Shown: positions 23,348 through 30,839 of the stretch, one piece after another
How the letters are laid out: each line of letters starts with the position of its first letter
Numbering within the stretch: the stretch's first letter is position 1
NCBI GenBank assembly: GCA_027366615.1
Contig: DAHXNG010000071.1
Span: 1 to 43,033, forward strand
Source of the DNA: Nitrospirota bacterium
GTDB lineage: Bacteria; Nitrospirota; Leptospirillia; Leptospirillales; Leptospirillaceae
Direction of reading: 5' to 3'
Length of the DNA: 43,033 bases
Position numbers and translations under genes: made by a program
Notes under the pieces: model-generated
Databases searched by the model: none
Seen by the model: only the letters and a program-made list of their open reading frames with translations
Told to the model about the DNA's origin: nothing

Positions 23348-23389
23348 GGATATTATAAAAAAGATGATGAAATGAACAGGAGTGAGACG

Positions 23390-23713
23390 ATGATTACGAT
23401 GAGCGAAAAGGCAGTGGAAAAGGTCAACGAATATCTCAAGACGGAAAACAAGGCAGGTTACGGCCTCAGGGTCTATGTCTCCGGGGGGGGATGTCATGGC
23501 TTCCAGTACGGGATGTCCTTCGAGGAGGCTCCGGGCGACATGGACCAGGTTGTCGAGGAGGCCGGCGTGAAGCTCTTCATCGACTCGCAGAGTTATCCCC
23601 TTCTTTCCGGGGCGACCGTCGACTATGTCGAGAATCTTTACGGTTCGGGTTTTGCCATCAAGAACCCGAATGCAAAGAGCTCCTGCGGATGCGGAAGCTC
23701 CTTTTCGGTCTGA
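23390..23713 (+). CDS. A-type iron-sulfur carrier (IscA/ErpA/HesB family)
   Basis: The 107-residue protein is a complete A-type carrier that accepts and delivers Fe-S clusters. The three cluster-ligand cysteines are in GGGCHGFQY and the C-terminal SCGCGSSF. I chose the ATG at 23390, which has AGGAG seven bases upstream and gives the usual MITMSEKAVEKV start; the ATG at 23372 is an alternative. The radical SAM and redox proteins in the window are plausible clients. A terminator follows at 23744-23776. Confidence 0.9.
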   Translation: MITMSEKAVEKVNEYLKTENKAGYGLRVYVSGGGCHGFQYGMSFEEAPGDMDQVVEEAGVKLFIDSQSYPLLSGATVDYVENLYGSGFAIKNPNAKSSCGCGSSFSV

Positions 23714-23743
23714 GACTTCCGGGGTTCGTTCCGGAAGGTCAGG

Positions 23744-23776
23744 GAGGGCCTGTGGCACAGCAGGCCCTCTTTTTTT
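23744..23776 (+). terminator. Rho-independent terminator containing the next gene's start codon
   Basis: A perfect 9-bp stem (GAGGGCCTG with CAGGCCCTC) and an 8-nt loop are followed by seven T residues. It ends the Fe-S carrier transcript. The GTG start (23752) of the lytic transglycosylase gene and its GGGAGGG Shine-Dalgarno both lie in this hairpin. Confidence 0.88.
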
Positions 23777-25801: not shown

Positions 25802-27259
25802 TCAGAGGGCGTCGGTCATCTCGTCGATGACGTAGCGGACGATCTCGGCCATGGTCGGATGGATGTGAAGGATCCTCTGATAGGTGTCGACGGTGGCACG
25901 AAGGGAAATTGCCACCCCGATCAAGTGGATAAGATCGGCGGCTCCCGGGCCGAACATTTCCGCGCCCAGGATCTCCCGGGTCTTGGCGGAGGCGGTGATC
26001 TTCAGTGCGCCCTCCGTCTGTCTGTTGACGATAGCCCGGCCGAGCTCGGAAAAGGGAAGATAGCCCGTCAAAACGGGAATGGCGCGTTCCCGGGCCTCCG
26101 ATTCGCTGATTCCGACCCGCGCAAACTCCGGCTCGGTGAAGATCGAAAGGGGAACAGGACGTTCTTCGACGATGCGCGGCGGGTCGAGGACGGCGTTTGT
26201 CCCGGCCATCTCCCCGTGGTAGGTGGCGAGGTTCAGGACGGGGAGGTGGCCTGTCACGTCACCGGCGGCAAAGATGTGAGGGTTTGATGTGCGGAGGCAG
26301 GGGTCGACGGCGATCGCCCCGGCATGGGAAAGGACGATTCCGGCGTGTTCGCAGCCAATCCCCGTGACGGCAGCCTGTCGGCCGGTCGCGAAGAGGATCC
26401 GGTCGGCCTCGAGGCGGAGGGCGTCTCCGTCTTTTCTTGTGGCATGGAGGATCGGCCGGCCGCCTGATGTCTCGAAGCGGTGGGCCGTCATGCCGAGATG
26501 CACCCTCAGTCCGCTTTTCTCAAGTGCGGCGATATATCCCTCCCCGATTCGAGGGTCGACGTTCGGGTTCCAGTGATGGGAGATCTCGACGACCTCGACC
26601 CGGACCCCCAGCATTGAGAGGTATTGTCCAAGCTCGAGTCCTACCGGACCTGCCCCCATGACAACCACCGACCGGGGAAGGGTGAGACATTCGAGGAGGT
26701 CGTCGGAGGTCCAGAGCCACTCCCGGTTGATCCCGGGGATCTCCGGGATGCGGGGGGTGGATCCCGTGGCAACGATGGCCCGGTCAAAGTGAAGGACCTC
26801 GTCTCCGACCCTGGCGGAGCTGTGGGAGAGGAATGTGGCAGGAGCGGGAATAAATCGTATGCCCGGGTTCCCGGTGACGCTCTGGTGAGCCGACTCGGCC
26901 ATCTCGCGGATCATGGAGTTCTTCATCGCCACGATGGTTGGAATGTCGATACGAAGAGATCCTGCGTCAAGGGAGATCCCCAGATCGGAAAGGCCCGTCC
27001 TGAGAAGGTGGAGGACGTGGGCTGGCCGGAGAAGGGCCTTGGAGGGCATGCATCCCTTCAGGATGCAGAGCCCTCCGAAGGGAGGCGGAGAGGCCAAAAC
27101 AACCTCCGCTCCGAGACTTGCCGCCTGTCTTGCGGCATAGCGCCCGGCCGATCCGGCGCCGATGACGAGAATCTTTCTTTTTTTCAAGGGAACCTCAGGG
27201 GGATTCGGGTGAGGAGTCTTCTGGGCCCGGGTTGCGCCTTCTCTCCGTAGAGAGAGCAT
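25802..27259 (-). CDS. Dihydrolipoamide dehydrogenase-like FAD/NAD(P) oxidoreductase
   Basis: The protein (up to 485 residues) has an FAD-binding GAGSAG (34-39), the redox-active pair Cys65 and Cys70 (GGLCILKGCMPSK), a second NAD-binding GAGPVGLELGQYL and the C-terminal His467-Glu472 pair of disulfide reductases. It belongs to the lipoamide dehydrogenase, mercuric reductase and soluble transhydrogenase group. It lacks the N-terminal HMA domain and C-terminal vicinal cysteines of MerA. The ATG at 27259 has no Shine-Dalgarno; a TTG at 27187 with GAGG nearby fits the family's start better, so the true protein may be 24 residues shorter. Confidence 0.82.
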   Translation of the reverse strand: MLSLRREGATRAQKTPHPNPPEVPLKKRKILVIGAGSAGRYAARQAASLGAEVVLASPPPFGGLCILKGCMPSKALLRPAHVLHLLRTGLSDLGISLDAGSLRIDIPTIVAMKNSMIREMAESAHQSVTGNPGIRFIPAPATFLSHSSARVGDEVLHFDRAIVATGSTPRIPEIPGINREWLWTSDDLLECLTLPRSVVVMGAGPVGLELGQYLSMLGVRVEVVEISHHWNPNVDPRIGEGYIAALEKSGLRVHLGMTAHRFETSGGRPILHATRKDGDALRLEADRILFATGRQAAVTGIGCEHAGIVLSHAGAIAVDPCLRTSNPHIFAAGDVTGHLPVLNLATYHGEMAGTNAVLDPPRIVEERPVPLSIFTEPEFARVGISESEARERAIPVLTGYLPFSELGRAIVNRQTEGALKITASAKTREILGAEMFGPGAADLIHLIGVAISLRATVDTYQRILHIHPTMAEIVRYVIDEMTDAL

Positions 27260-27370
27260 AACTGAAATGGCCGAGAGAAGTCATCTTGAGGACGTTTTTC
27301 AGGCGGCAGGGGCCGCTTTGGGGCGTTTTGAAAGAGTTTTTGTGCGAATTGGGATTTTTCGAGAGGGATA

Positions 27371-27399
27371 TTGCCTTTTTTTAACTCACCGTGTAATCT
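27371..27399 (+). promoter_or_regulatory. Putative sigma-70 promoter of the glnA leader
   Basis: TTGCCT (27371-27376) and TAATCT (27394-27399) are separated by 17 bp. Transcription would start near 27406 and give a leader of about 265 nt before glnA. Confidence 0.55.
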
Positions 27400-27405
27400 T
27401 TGTGG

Positions 27406-27564
27406 AGATCGGTATCGCGAAAAACGCATCCAGACTTTCCAGGCCAAAGACAGGCCGCCAGGAAAGGATCATCGGCGATGTTCACGCAGAGACGGTGATC
27501 GGGAGCGAGAATAAGGGGCGAAGACAAGGGAGTCTTCATGAGTCGTCATGGAGGCTCTTTTTTT
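27406..27564 (+). ncRNA. Structured glnA leader: candidate riboswitch/attenuator or sRNA
   Basis: The transcript from the promoter at 27371-27399 can fold into several helices. One stem pairs CTTTCC (27435-27440) with GGAAAG (27461-27466) around an inner GGCC/GGCC stem. A possible closing helix pairs ATCGC (27414-27418) with GCGAT (27475-27479). A TCAC/GTGA stem lies at 27482-27498. The end then offers two exclusive stems: GAAGAC (27520-27525) with GTCTTC (27532-27537), or the long terminator stem at 27530-27557. This is the arrangement of a ligand- or protein-controlled antiterminator. No known riboswitch class was matched. Confidence 0.55.
27530..27564 (+). terminator. Intrinsic terminator (attenuator) in the glnA leader
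   Basis: An 11-bp stem (GAGTCTTCATG, 27530-27540, with CATGGAGGCTC, 27547-27557, including two G-U pairs) and a 6-nt loop are followed by seven T residues. It lies 108 bp before the glnA start. An alternative hairpin at 27520-27537 would block its 5' arm. Confidence 0.85.
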
Positions 27565-27588
27565 GTTTCGCCCCCTTTTTTATGTTCA

Positions 27589-27625
27589 GGCGGAGGCGGG
27601 ATCCGGGACCAGGTCCCACTCCGCC
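27589..27625 (+). promoter_or_regulatory. Second leader hairpin before glnA
   Basis: GGCGGAG (27589-27595) pairs with CTCCGCC (27619-27625), with an inner GGGAC/GTCCC stem. It is 30 bp upstream of the AAGGAG ribosome-binding site (27656-27661) and could modulate translation or mRNA life. Confidence 0.55.
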
Positions 27626-27671
27626 CCGGGTTTTCCCATCCCATGACCATCATTTAAGGAGCAGGATTCTC

Positions 27672-29081
27672 ATGACCCCGAAAGAAGTGCTTGACTATGC
27701 AAAGAAGAACAATGTTCAGATCATCGATGTGAAGTTTACCGATCTGTTTGGAACCTGGCAGCACTTTTCCATTACGCCCCTCCAGCTTTCCGAGGAGACC
27801 TTCGAGGAGGGCCTGGGCTTCGATGGGTCCAGTATCCGCGGTTTTCAGACCATCAACGAATCCGACATGCTCCTTATTCCCGATCCCAAGACTGCCTTCC
27901 TCGATCCCTTTACCCAGGTGCCGACGCTTTCCCTTATCTGCAACATCAAGGACCCCATCACGGGTGAGTCCTATGCCAAGGATCCCCGCTATATCGCGCA
28001 GAAGGCGGAAAACTACCTCAAGAAGGTGGCCGACATCTCCTACTGGGGCCCCGAGTGCGAGTTCTTTGTCTTCGACGACGTCCGTTACGGATCGGGACCG
28101 AACTTCTCCCACTACGCAGTTGACTCGATCGAGGGGGCCTGGAACACCGGCCGGGAAGAGGATCCCAACCTGGGCTACAAGATCCGCCACAAGGAAGGAT
28201 ACTTTCCCGTTCCGCCGACCGACACCCTGCAGGATCTCAGAAGCGAGATGGTCCTGACCATGGAGCAGATCGGGATCCGCTGCGAGGTCCATCACCATGA
28301 GGTTGCCACCGCCGGACAGTGCGAGATCGACATGCGCTTCGACACCATGACCAAGATGGCCGACAATGTGATGAAGTACAAGTATGTCGTGAAGAATACC
28401 GCCGTCAAGTACGGAAAGACGGCCACATTCATGCCCAAGCCTCTTTTTCAGGACAACGGCTCCGGCATGCACGTCCACCAGAGCCTCTGGAAGGCCGGCA
28501 AGAACCTCTTCTACCAGAAGGGCGGTTACGGAGACATTTCGGAGATGGCCCGCCACTACATCGGCGGACTGATCCATCACGCTCCGGCACTTCTGGCCTT
28601 CATCGCCCCCACGACCAATTCCTATCGTCGTCTGGTTCCGGGCTATGAAGCTCCGATCAACCTCATGTACTCGAAGCGGAACCGTTCCGCCTGCGTCCGC
28701 ATCCCCATGTACTCGAAGAGCGAGAAGTCCAAGCGTATCGAGTTCCGGACTCCCGACCCCTCGAGCAACCCGTACATCGTCTTTGCCGCCCTTCTCATGG
28801 CCGGTCTTGACGGCGTCGAAAGAAAGCTCGAGCCTCCGGCTCCGCTCGACAAGGATCTCTACGAGCTGACCGACCGGGAAAAGAAGAAGATCAAGCAGAT
28901 GCCGGGAAGCCTCGAACAGGCCCTTCAGGCACTCGAGAAGGATCATGACTTCCTCCTCAAGGGAGGGGTGTTTACCTCCGAGCTGATCGAGACCTGGATT
29001 CATGAAAAGATGAAGAAGGAAGTGGATGCAGTCCGTCTTCGTCCTCATCCCCATGAGTTCTTCCTGTATTACGACATCTAG
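27672..29081 (+). CDS. glnA: Glutamine synthetase type I
   Basis: GlnA makes glutamine from glutamate, ammonia and ATP and is the entry point of nitrogen assimilation. The 469-residue protein is a complete type I subunit (a dodecamer in the family), with the GFDGSSIRGF loop, metal ligands in YWGPECEFFVFD and the HHHEVATAGQCEID segment. It has the MHVHQSLW motif and the NRSACVRIP loop. Tyr397 in KDLYELT lines up with the adenylylation tyrosine of the enterobacterial enzyme, so GlnE-type control is likely. The ATG has AAGGAG ten bases upstream. It is preceded by a structured leader and followed by a strong terminator and nifA. Confidence 0.95.
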   Translation: MTPKEVLDYAKKNNVQIIDVKFTDLFGTWQHFSITPLQLSEETFEEGLGFDGSSIRGFQTINESDMLLIPDPKTAFLDPFTQVPTLSLICNIKDPITGESYAKDPRYIAQKAENYLKKVADISYWGPECEFFVFDDVRYGSGPNFSHYAVDSIEGAWNTGREEDPNLGYKIRHKEGYFPVPPTDTLQDLRSEMVLTMEQIGIRCEVHHHEVATAGQCEIDMRFDTMTKMADNVMKYKYVVKNTAVKYGKTATFMPKPLFQDNGSGMHVHQSLWKAGKNLFYQKGGYGDISEMARHYIGGLIHHAPALLAFIAPTTNSYRRLVPGYEAPINLMYSKRNRSACVRIPMYSKSEKSKRIEFRTPDPSSNPYIVFAALLMAGLDGVERKLEPPAPLDKDLYELTDREKKKIKQMPGSLEQALQALEKDHDFLLKGGVFTSELIETWIHEKMKKEVDAVRLRPHPHEFFLYYDI

Positions 29082-29216: not shown

Positions 29217-30839
29217 ATGAATCACGAGCAGAAAATCATTCGGGAGCTGACGGCCTTTTTTGAGATCAGCCGGGAGCTTGCGAGCTCTCCGGACCTCGAC
29301 AGCGCCCTGGCCCACATTCTGGGAATCATGGACTCCCAGCTCAATCTCCACCGGGGAGCTATCCTCCTGCTCGATGCGCAGACCGACGAGCTCATGACGG
29401 AGCTTGCCTTCGGGATGTCGGAGGAGGAGAAGCGGAAGGGGCGTTTCAAGGCCGGGGAGGGGATCAGCGGGACGGTGCTTTCGACAGGACAGCCCATCGT
29501 CGTCCCCGACATCGATGCCGAACCCCGCTTTTTGAACCGCACCGGGAGTCGACGGGGGAAGGGACGGGCAAAGACGGCCTTCATTGCCGTTCCCCTGATT
29601 TTTCAGGGGAAGAAGCTGGGCGTTCTCTCGGCCGATTGCGACATGTCCAAGGAAGAGCGGGACCTCGAAGAGGACACACGCGTGCTCTCGATCATCGGGT
29701 CGACCATTGCCCAGGCGGTGCTTCTTCGCCAGCGGCTCTCCCTGGAAAACCGGAAACTCCTTGAGGAGGCCTCCCGCCTCGAGCATGCCCTGAAGGACCG
29801 GTATGCGATCGAGGGGTGGATCGGCCGCTCCAAGGTCATGCACCAGATCGCAGAGAGCGTCCACCAGGTGGCGGGAAGCCGGGCGACCGTCCTGATCCTG
29901 GGAGAAAGCGGGACCGGCAAGGAGGTGATCGCCAAGGCGCTCCACTTCATGAGCCCCCGGGCCAAGAACCCCTTCGTACAGATCAACTGTGCCGCCATCC
30001 CCGAGACCCTTCTTGAGAGCCAGCTTTTTGGCCACGAGAAGGGGGCCTTCACCGGAGCCCATATCTCCCGCCCGGGCAAGTTCGAGGCGGCCGACGGAGG
30101 GACGATCTTTCTCGACGAGATCGGAGAGATCTCCCCGGCTGTACAGGTAAAGCTCCTTCGGGTCCTCCAGGAGCGTTCGGTGGAGCGACTGGGAGGTCAG
30201 CGGGTCATCCCTGTCGACGTTCGGATCGTTGCCGCCACGAACAAAAATCTTGAGGAGATGATCCGCCGGAACCTTTTTCGGGAGGACCTTTACTATCGGC
30301 TGAACGTCGTACCGCTTGTCCTGCCGCCCCTTCGGGCGAGACGGGAAGATATTCCTCTGCTTCTCGACCATTTTCTGGAGCGATTCAACCGGGATAACGG
30401 ACGGACTGTCGAGCTCAGTTCGGGGGTCCTCGATCTTTTGATCGATTACGAATGGCCAGGCAATGTCCGGGAGCTTGAAAACATGGTGGAAAGGCTTGTG
30501 GTGATGGCCCGGGAGGACCGGATCACAGGGGAGGACGTCAGGAGGGCGATGACGCTCTATCCCCGTCCCTCCCGGATTGAGACCTCCCGGGAGCCATCGG
30601 AAGGGACCCCAAGGCCGAGTGTGGAGAGAGACGGGGAAATCCACGGGGAGGAGCCGGAGGTTCGGGCCAGGGGGCTACTCGGGGCGGTCAGCTCCCTTGA
30701 GCGGGAGCAGATCGAGTCTGTTCTGAAGCGCTACGGATATGTGAAGACCCGGGCGGCCAGGGCTCTCGGGGTGACTCCGCGCCAGCTTCGCTACCGCATG
30801 ATCAAGTACGGGATCCCCGACGACCTGCCGGAGGAGTGA
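29217..30839 (+). CDS. nifA: NifA-type sigma-54-dependent transcriptional activator
   Basis: The 540-residue protein has the NifA domain order: a GAF domain (about 25-172), an AAA+ domain (about 200-430) and a C-terminal Fis-type helix-turn-helix (about 494-533, TRAARALGVTPRQLRYR). The AAA+ domain has Walker A GESGTGKE (229-236), the sigma-54 contact loop GAFTGA (276-281) and Walker B GGTIFLDE (294-301). The EPRFLNRTG segment in GAF is typical of NifA. The linker before the helix-turn-helix has no cysteine, unlike oxygen-sensing NifA proteins. NifA drives nif promoters with RpoN; here it follows glnA. A general NtrC-like regulator is less likely because no receiver domain is present. Confidence 0.85.
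   Translation: MNHEQKIIRELTAFFEISRELASSPDLDSALAHILGIMDSQLNLHRGAILLLDAQTDELMTELAFGMSEEEKRKGRFKAGEGISGTVLSTGQPIVVPDIDAEPRFLNRTGSRRGKGRAKTAFIAVPLIFQGKKLGVLSADCDMSKEERDLEEDTRVLSIIGSTIAQAVLLRQRLSLENRKLLEEASRLEHALKDRYAIEGWIGRSKVMHQIAESVHQVAGSRATVLILGESGTGKEVIAKALHFMSPRAKNPFVQINCAAIPETLLESQLFGHEKGAFTGAHISRPGKFEAADGGTIFLDEIGEISPAVQVKLLRVLQERSVERLGGQRVIPVDVRIVAATNKNLEEMIRRNLFREDLYYRLNVVPLVLPPLRARREDIPLLLDHFLERFNRDNGRTVELSSGVLDLLIDYEWPGNVRELENMVERLVVMAREDRITGEDVRRAMTLYPRPSRIETSREPSEGTPRPSVERDGEIHGEEPEVRARGLLGAVSSLEREQIESVLKRYGYVKTRAARALGVTPRQLRYRMIKYGIPDDLPEE

Follow-up and report, generated by a model that had tools for sequence, protein, structure and literature searches.

Antiterminators targeted by ANTAR-domain proteins are known for EutV, NasR and AmiR, and share a hairpin, P2, that has a hexaloop with A at position 1 and G at position 4 (A1/G4) and overlaps the terminator; the terminator-overlapping eut box was published as AGCAANGRRGCUY, and the predicted ANTAR targets are mostly nitrogen genes, glutamine synthesis among them (PMC3369931). 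In the case of EutV, a first hairpin, P1, is required and a linker 20 nt longer abolishes antitermination, and single hexaloops bind well (PMC3369931, PMC8934654). For the acid-mine iron oxidizers, NtrYX/PII-based control was proposed earlier (PMC2607301).

Here, we analyzed the leader of glnA in a 43,033-nt stretch of DNA (the window) from a member of the Leptospirillaceae in the phylum Nitrospirota, and compared it with its counterparts in a family sample of 21 genomes, 20 of them with glnA, representing 5 genera. Judging from the sequences, this leader is very probably a transcription attenuator controlled by an ANTAR-domain RNA-binding protein. It resembles the EutV/eut, NasR/nasF and AmiR/amiE systems in its A1/G4 P2 hexaloop, in the overlap of P2 with the 5' arm of the terminator, in its position as the leader of a nitrogen gene, and in the presence of ANTAR genes in the relatives of the window. 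In contrast to these systems, which have a canonical P1 at 2-25 nt from P2, the window leader has a heptaloop with G4 located 63 nt away, and the sister genera have nothing clear. The features of the locus and of the related sites discussed below are listed in Table 1.

Table 1. Features of the glnA leader and downstream genes in the window, and candidate ANTAR sites in the sister family.
Feature	Coordinates	Strand	Description
Sigma-70-like promoter	27371..27399	+	TTGCCT-N17-TAATCT, from sequence; -35 TTGCCT 27371-27376, -10 TAATCT 27394-27399
H_a, 5' hairpin	27411..27431	+	GGUAUCGCGAAAAACGCAUCC; clade A alignment; near-invariant in the sub-clade of the window
H_b, P1-like hairpin	27435..27466	+	apical GGCC-AAAGACA-GGCC at 27442-27456; fold -11.3 kcal/mol
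H_c helix	27467..27500	+	GAUCAUCG...CGGUGAUC; between the P1-like hairpin and P2
Linker, conserved, single-stranded	27501..27519	+	GGGAGCGAGAAUAAGGGGC; clade A alignment
Antiterminator, ANTAR-type P2 hairpin	27520..27537	+	hexaloop with A1 and G4; GAAGAC 27520-27525, loop AAGGGA 27526-27531, GTCTTC (GUCUUC in RNA) 27532-27537; 6 bp; -6.1 kcal/mol
Intrinsic terminator	27526..27564	+	stem 27526-27541/27546-27561, 16 bp; loop UCGU; U7 27558-27564; -20.2 kcal/mol
Stable hairpin between terminator and ribosome-binding site	27589..27625	+	-23.2 kcal/mol; no U tract
Shine-Dalgarno	27656..27661	+	AAGGAG, from sequence
glnA, type I glutamine synthetase	27672..29081	+	TIGR00653, profile match
nifA	29220..30839	+	TIGR01817; GAF, sigma-54 AAA, Fis HTH; next gene after glnA
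ANTAR dual-hexaloop sites with terminators, near a GAF-GAF-ANTAR gene, sister family	L201:916, 1025, 10590	-	around amt-glnB-glnD-glnA and urea-uptake-like genes
ANTAR dual-hexaloop site with terminator, near a GAF-GAF-ANTAR gene, sister family	L202:6265	+	around amt-glnB-glnD-glnA and urea-uptake-like genes

The core of the leader is a switch composed of two competing hairpins. The terminator begins inside the P2 hexaloop, and because both structures need bases 27526-27537, they are mutually exclusive, as proposed in the initial annotation, which correctly recognized the run of seven T residues but gave the terminator a stem of 11 bp, five fewer than the computed one. Nascent RNA extending to 27545 adopts the antiterminator fold, such that P2 is complete before the terminator during transcription; however, the terminator is the more stable of the two, and the default outcome would thus be termination unless P2 is held. 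We therefore envisage that, by default, RNA polymerase would start near 27406, the 16-bp terminator (27526-27561) would form, and most transcripts would end near 27564. Under nitrogen need, an activated ANTAR protein would bind the AAGGGA hexaloop of the emerging P2 and hold this hairpin, leaving the terminator without its 5' arm, so that glnA, and perhaps nifA, would be transcribed. In this scheme, the binding of an ANTAR protein at this site, the direction of control and the signal are all inferred, and the direction, from nitrogen need to read-through, would follow that of the known ANTAR systems by analogy.

The start site near 27406 is suggested by the position of the promoter. A consensus promoter scan yielded 0 promoters, with the TTGCCT/TAATCT pair falling below the scan threshold; this pair, already pointed out in the initial annotation, nevertheless occupies the same register as TTGC[CG]T...GTGTANTCT of the same-genus leaders and TTGACA-N17-TAGAAT of the sister genera. 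At the other end of the locus, the gene following glnA, previously called nifA, indeed matches the NifA profile. It is possibly co-transcribed with glnA, and two genera preserve the glnA-nifA order. We also observed that nifA (window 29220-30839; L035, L044) stays beside glnA in G004 and G012, genomes without detectable nifH, so that nifA may control something besides nitrogenase.

Conserved pairing in orthologous leaders, the test set beforehand for this locus, was found throughout the family. Leader DNA matches were detected in 13 of 41 relatives and could be aligned within the genus, and a covariance model of the switch built from 13 leaders placed it in front of glnA in each of the 20 family genomes that carry this gene (E 6.9e-14 to 1.9e-5). 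In the same genomes, the model found no other place at E < 1e-3 except the reverse strand of the switch itself; weaker matches (E 0.004-0.5) resembled ordinary terminators and were rejected. In the terminator stem, 98.4% of the alignment cells are paired and covariation reaches 0.274, compared to 0.186 in shuffled alignments (0/500 as high) and at most 0.135 in slid controls, with 11 cells changed on both sides vs 3.7 in the shuffles. The P2 stem is paired in 100% of the cells across 14 distinct rows, with AAGAC, AA and GG invariant and covariation limited to the outermost pair (G-C/G-U/A-U), and every family leader has AARGGN as its P2 loop. Although the GAAGAC arm is not part of the terminator stem, AAGAC does not vary among the 5 genera, which indicates that P2 itself is under selection. 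Beyond the family, 17 glnA leaders representing other families of the phylum were inspected, and all lacked the P2 hairpin.

The switch also appears to be confined to this one place. Searching for a second family site with the exact P2 pattern RGACAARGGNGTCY returned a single match in each of G000, G002 and G015, always at the glnA leader. A scan for P2 with a terminator over 2.0 Mb of the single-contig genome G015 gave 5 matches vs 4 in two nulls, of which only the glnA site was convincing, and a separate scan of the region around the nif-linked ANTAR gene in this genome found no second site. In the window, one further P2-like match, at 23736-23776 (AGGUC-AGGGAG-GGCCU; scan match 23741), has an off-consensus loop, AGGGAG, and no P1, and is probably an ordinary terminator behind the gene at 23372-23713.

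Upstream of the switch, the leaders diverge into three types that differ in the length from the -10 element to the switch: ~119-185 nt in clade A (the window and its close relatives), ~60 nt in clade B (same genus) and 33-36 nt in clade C (other genera). Common to all leaders is the switch alone, that is, AAGACAARGGNGTCTT followed by the terminator. This distribution bears directly on the possibility, raised in the initial annotation, that a metabolite riboswitch, perhaps a new glutamine class, resides in the 5' leader and senses glutamine, 2-oxoglutarate or another ligand, with P2 and the terminator as its expression platform. The window leader is indeed long, with ~115 nt preceding P2, and it is strongly structured: the segment 27400-27640 folds at -106.5 kcal/mol, compared to -80.8 +/- 4.9 for 200 dinucleotide shuffles (z -5.28; 0/200 equal), and the sub-clade conserves parts of it. 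The glutamine riboswitches (glnA RNA, Downstream-peptide/glutamine-II) are likewise leader RNAs controlling glnA. However, unlike these, the window contains no Rfam family at the gathering score (0 matches), and the sub-threshold matches on 27200-27720 (E 10) are unconvincing, the best being mir-H20 (E 0.047) and PyrR (E 2.8); the regulator of this leader would instead be a protein. Moreover, the upstream elements are not kept across genera, whereas P2 and the terminator are. We consider a riboswitch very improbable, mainly because the 33-36 nt between the -10 element and P2 in the sister genera leave little room for an aptamer, and protein-controlled attenuation, the other mechanism suggested at the outset, has a much higher probability than a new riboswitch class.

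The same comparison makes it extremely improbable that the locus encodes an independent sRNA of ~160 nt that ends at the terminator and is unconnected with glnA control. A structured RNA is bracketed here by a promoter and a strong terminator, and an RNA of this kind could arise as a by-product of termination; but neither its size (33 to 185 nt up to P2) nor its sequence is conserved, and what is conserved is the switch alone, always ahead of glnA.

Several elements of the attenuator leader are specific to subsets of the family. H_a is not present in the sister genera, and H_c varies in length, being longer in L035-L037 and L052 and absent from clade B. In clade A, an outer stem around the switch, GGGGCGAA at 27515-27522 with UUUCGCCCC at 27567-27574, would pair the 3' part of the linker, GGGGC(GAA), with 27567-27574 and can form in read-through RNA only; in L035 and L052, GGGGC/GCCCC is replaced by GGGAC/GUCCC, a G-C to A-U change. 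Further downstream, the hairpin noted previously before the ribosome-binding site is real but, lacking a U tract, is not a terminator. Reading by eye, we saw unrelated-looking hairpins at the matching position in relatives, and the recurrence there of hairpins that differ in sequence makes a structural role in the antiterminated mRNA possible.

The principal departure from the known ANTAR systems concerns P1. A strict search for a canonical P1 (an A1/G4 hexaloop 2-25 nt 5' of P2) found none in the window, and among 21 leaders such a hairpin is present only in L043 and L052. In its place, the genus has H_b, with a 7-nt loop of the consensus RNNGNCA that retains G4; its clade B equivalent is UCCC-GAAGGCA-GGGA, 10 nt 5' of P2, and most leaders of clade B have a spacing of 10-11 nt. 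The four pairs of the apical H_b stem covary between the two sub-clades of the genus (0.604 vs 0.144 shuffled, 0/500), in an alignment of 9 rows chosen and assembled by hand. Of the 63 nt separating H_b from P2 in the window, 34 can fold as H_c, with the 19-nt conserved linker remaining; in leaders with inserted structured RNA, the heptaloop hairpin lies up to 63-117 nt from P2, and clade C has no evident hairpin of this kind. The window also offers two weak P1 alternatives, neither of them conserved: a heptaloop closed by a 3-bp CGC/GUG stem, at 22 nt from P2, and a hexaloop on a 3-bp AUC/GAU stem, at 40 nt. The H_b heptaloop hairpin may serve as the recruitment site in the genus of the window. 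With P2 and the overlapping terminator in place and a canonical P1 missing, the glnA leader is, by its sequence, best described as a variant of the ANTAR attenuators rather than a plain member of this class.

The loop and stem of the window P2 match the published AGCAANGRRGCUY box, and an independent test linked the exact P2 sequence to ANTAR-type sites elsewhere. We scanned 84,980 genomes with the exact pattern AAGACAARGGNGTCTTNNTGA and obtained 40 loci, 19 from the Leptospirillum group and 21 others, the latter compared to ~15 expected by chance (arithmetic from base counts). Outside the Leptospirillum group, 2 of the 21 loci have a terminator in the right place. In an Actinomycetota MAG (L195, 1880-2030), the site immediately precedes glnA and a gene for a glutamine amidotransferase, and a canonical P1 (CAAUAC-ACUGUU-GUAUUG) stands 2 nt 5' of P2. 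In a Halothiobacillus MAG (L192, 780-864), the site lies between a REC-ANTAR (NasT-like) gene and a gene for an MFS transporter, which we assume may be for nitrate, with a canonical P1 (AAACC-AACGGC-GGUUU) ~15 nt 5' of P2. By these sequence features, the pattern taken from the Leptospirillum glnA leader retrieved two textbook ANTAR sites.

Related sites were detected closer to home, in the sister family of Nitrospira-like bacteria. In G029, an orthologue of the GAF-GAF-ANTAR protein described below (46% identical; 44-46% across the sister family) is encoded upstream of, and on the same strand as, amt-amt-glnB-glnD-glnA; a dual-hexaloop site with a terminator heads this region, and two more sites follow glnA. 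In G037, a site precedes genes for a porin and a urea-type ABC binding protein (annotated by eye). Two P2 loops of the sister family are AAAGGC, as in other leaders of the Leptospirillum family. The pattern GGACAANGRCGTCC gave 119 matches in 41 sister-family genomes vs 32 for a reversed control pattern (summed by hand), repeatedly just after glnA (e.g., G069, G086). Thus, on sequence grounds, a glnA-bearing nitrogen operon in the sister family appears to be under ANTAR control, with a canonical P1. The sites in L201, L202, L192 and L195 share with the window a GAC-AANGRN-GUC core, the terminator overlap and the association with nitrogen genes; they differ from it in having a canonical P1, the exception being one of the two sites after the Nitrospira glnA.

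ANTAR domains (PF03861) are encoded in 19 of the 21 family genomes, the two without being the assembly of the window itself, in which no ANTAR gene was found (70% complete), and one that is 64% complete. An alternative explanation of the switch, namely, that a different RNA-binding protein acts here, or that attenuation is constitutive and partial with P2 merely delaying the terminator, would account for the missing or aberrant P1 and for the unaided formation of P2 in nascent RNA. It would, however, reduce the exact A1/G4 hexaloop, the ANTAR-linked sites of the same sequence and the family-wide ANTAR genes to coincidence, and we regard it as quite improbable.

The ANTAR proteins of the family are of two kinds. 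The first is a GAF-GAF-ANTAR protein of ~410 aa, missing from five genomes, or from six when a fragment at a contig edge in G005 is disregarded, compared to ~3.8 absences expected from completeness, so that this type is possibly universal in the family. The second is a 205-aa protein with a C-terminal ANTAR domain, of AmiR/NasT-like size, the N-terminal part of which was matched by no Pfam model. Of the 13 genomes in which nifH exceeded the cut-off, 12 carry its gene; so does the one genome with a partial nifH, and no other. At the loci with enough sequence, it follows one or two tandem PII-family genes and precedes a nifV-like gene (L142:3892-6815; also L093-L096, L101, L143, L144). The second tandem PII-family gene carries a long insert, which we take to be like that of NifI2. 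This arrangement makes it possible that the tandem PII proteins and the 205-aa protein form a PII-ANTAR signaling pair, and the NifI/PII-ANTAR-nifV gene order suggests a new route for PII signals to RNA. By alignment, both kinds of ANTAR protein are identical to EutV at 8-9 of its 11 RNA-contact positions (Arg142, Lys143, Lys147, Lys149, Glu160, Tyr164, Arg168, Met172, Asn173, Arg175 and Arg177).

Co-occurrence with the motif is imperfect for either gene. The nif-negative genomes G012, G017 and G004 keep the glnA switch and the GAF-GAF-ANTAR gene and are missing the 205-aa type, making the former the better candidate; G002, the closest to the window (96% complete), has the 205-aa type only, without the GAF-GAF type. 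From this distribution, we lean toward the GAF-GAF-ANTAR protein as the probable cognate regulator; otherwise, it might be the small NifI/PII-linked ANTAR protein of the diazotrophs, or both kinds. A more specific scenario is tentative and, in our assessment, rather doubtful: a one-hexaloop ANTAR attenuator, with P1 lost in some genera, a heptaloop displaced by inserted RNA in Leptospirillum sensu stricto, and a PII-type (NifI-like) partner in the diazotrophs. If true, this single-hexaloop and PII reading would break the two-hairpin rule and provide a direct link from PII to antitermination.

The missing P1 offers a natural test of the structural claim made in 2022 that the minimal binding site of ANTAR proteins is one hexaloop. 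More broadly, these observations would extend ANTAR antitermination to Nitrospirota, a phylum in which the Nitrospira-like sister family has a small ammonium/glutamine regulon that appears to be ANTAR-controlled, and offer a candidate mechanism for the control of glnA in acid-mine iron oxidizers.
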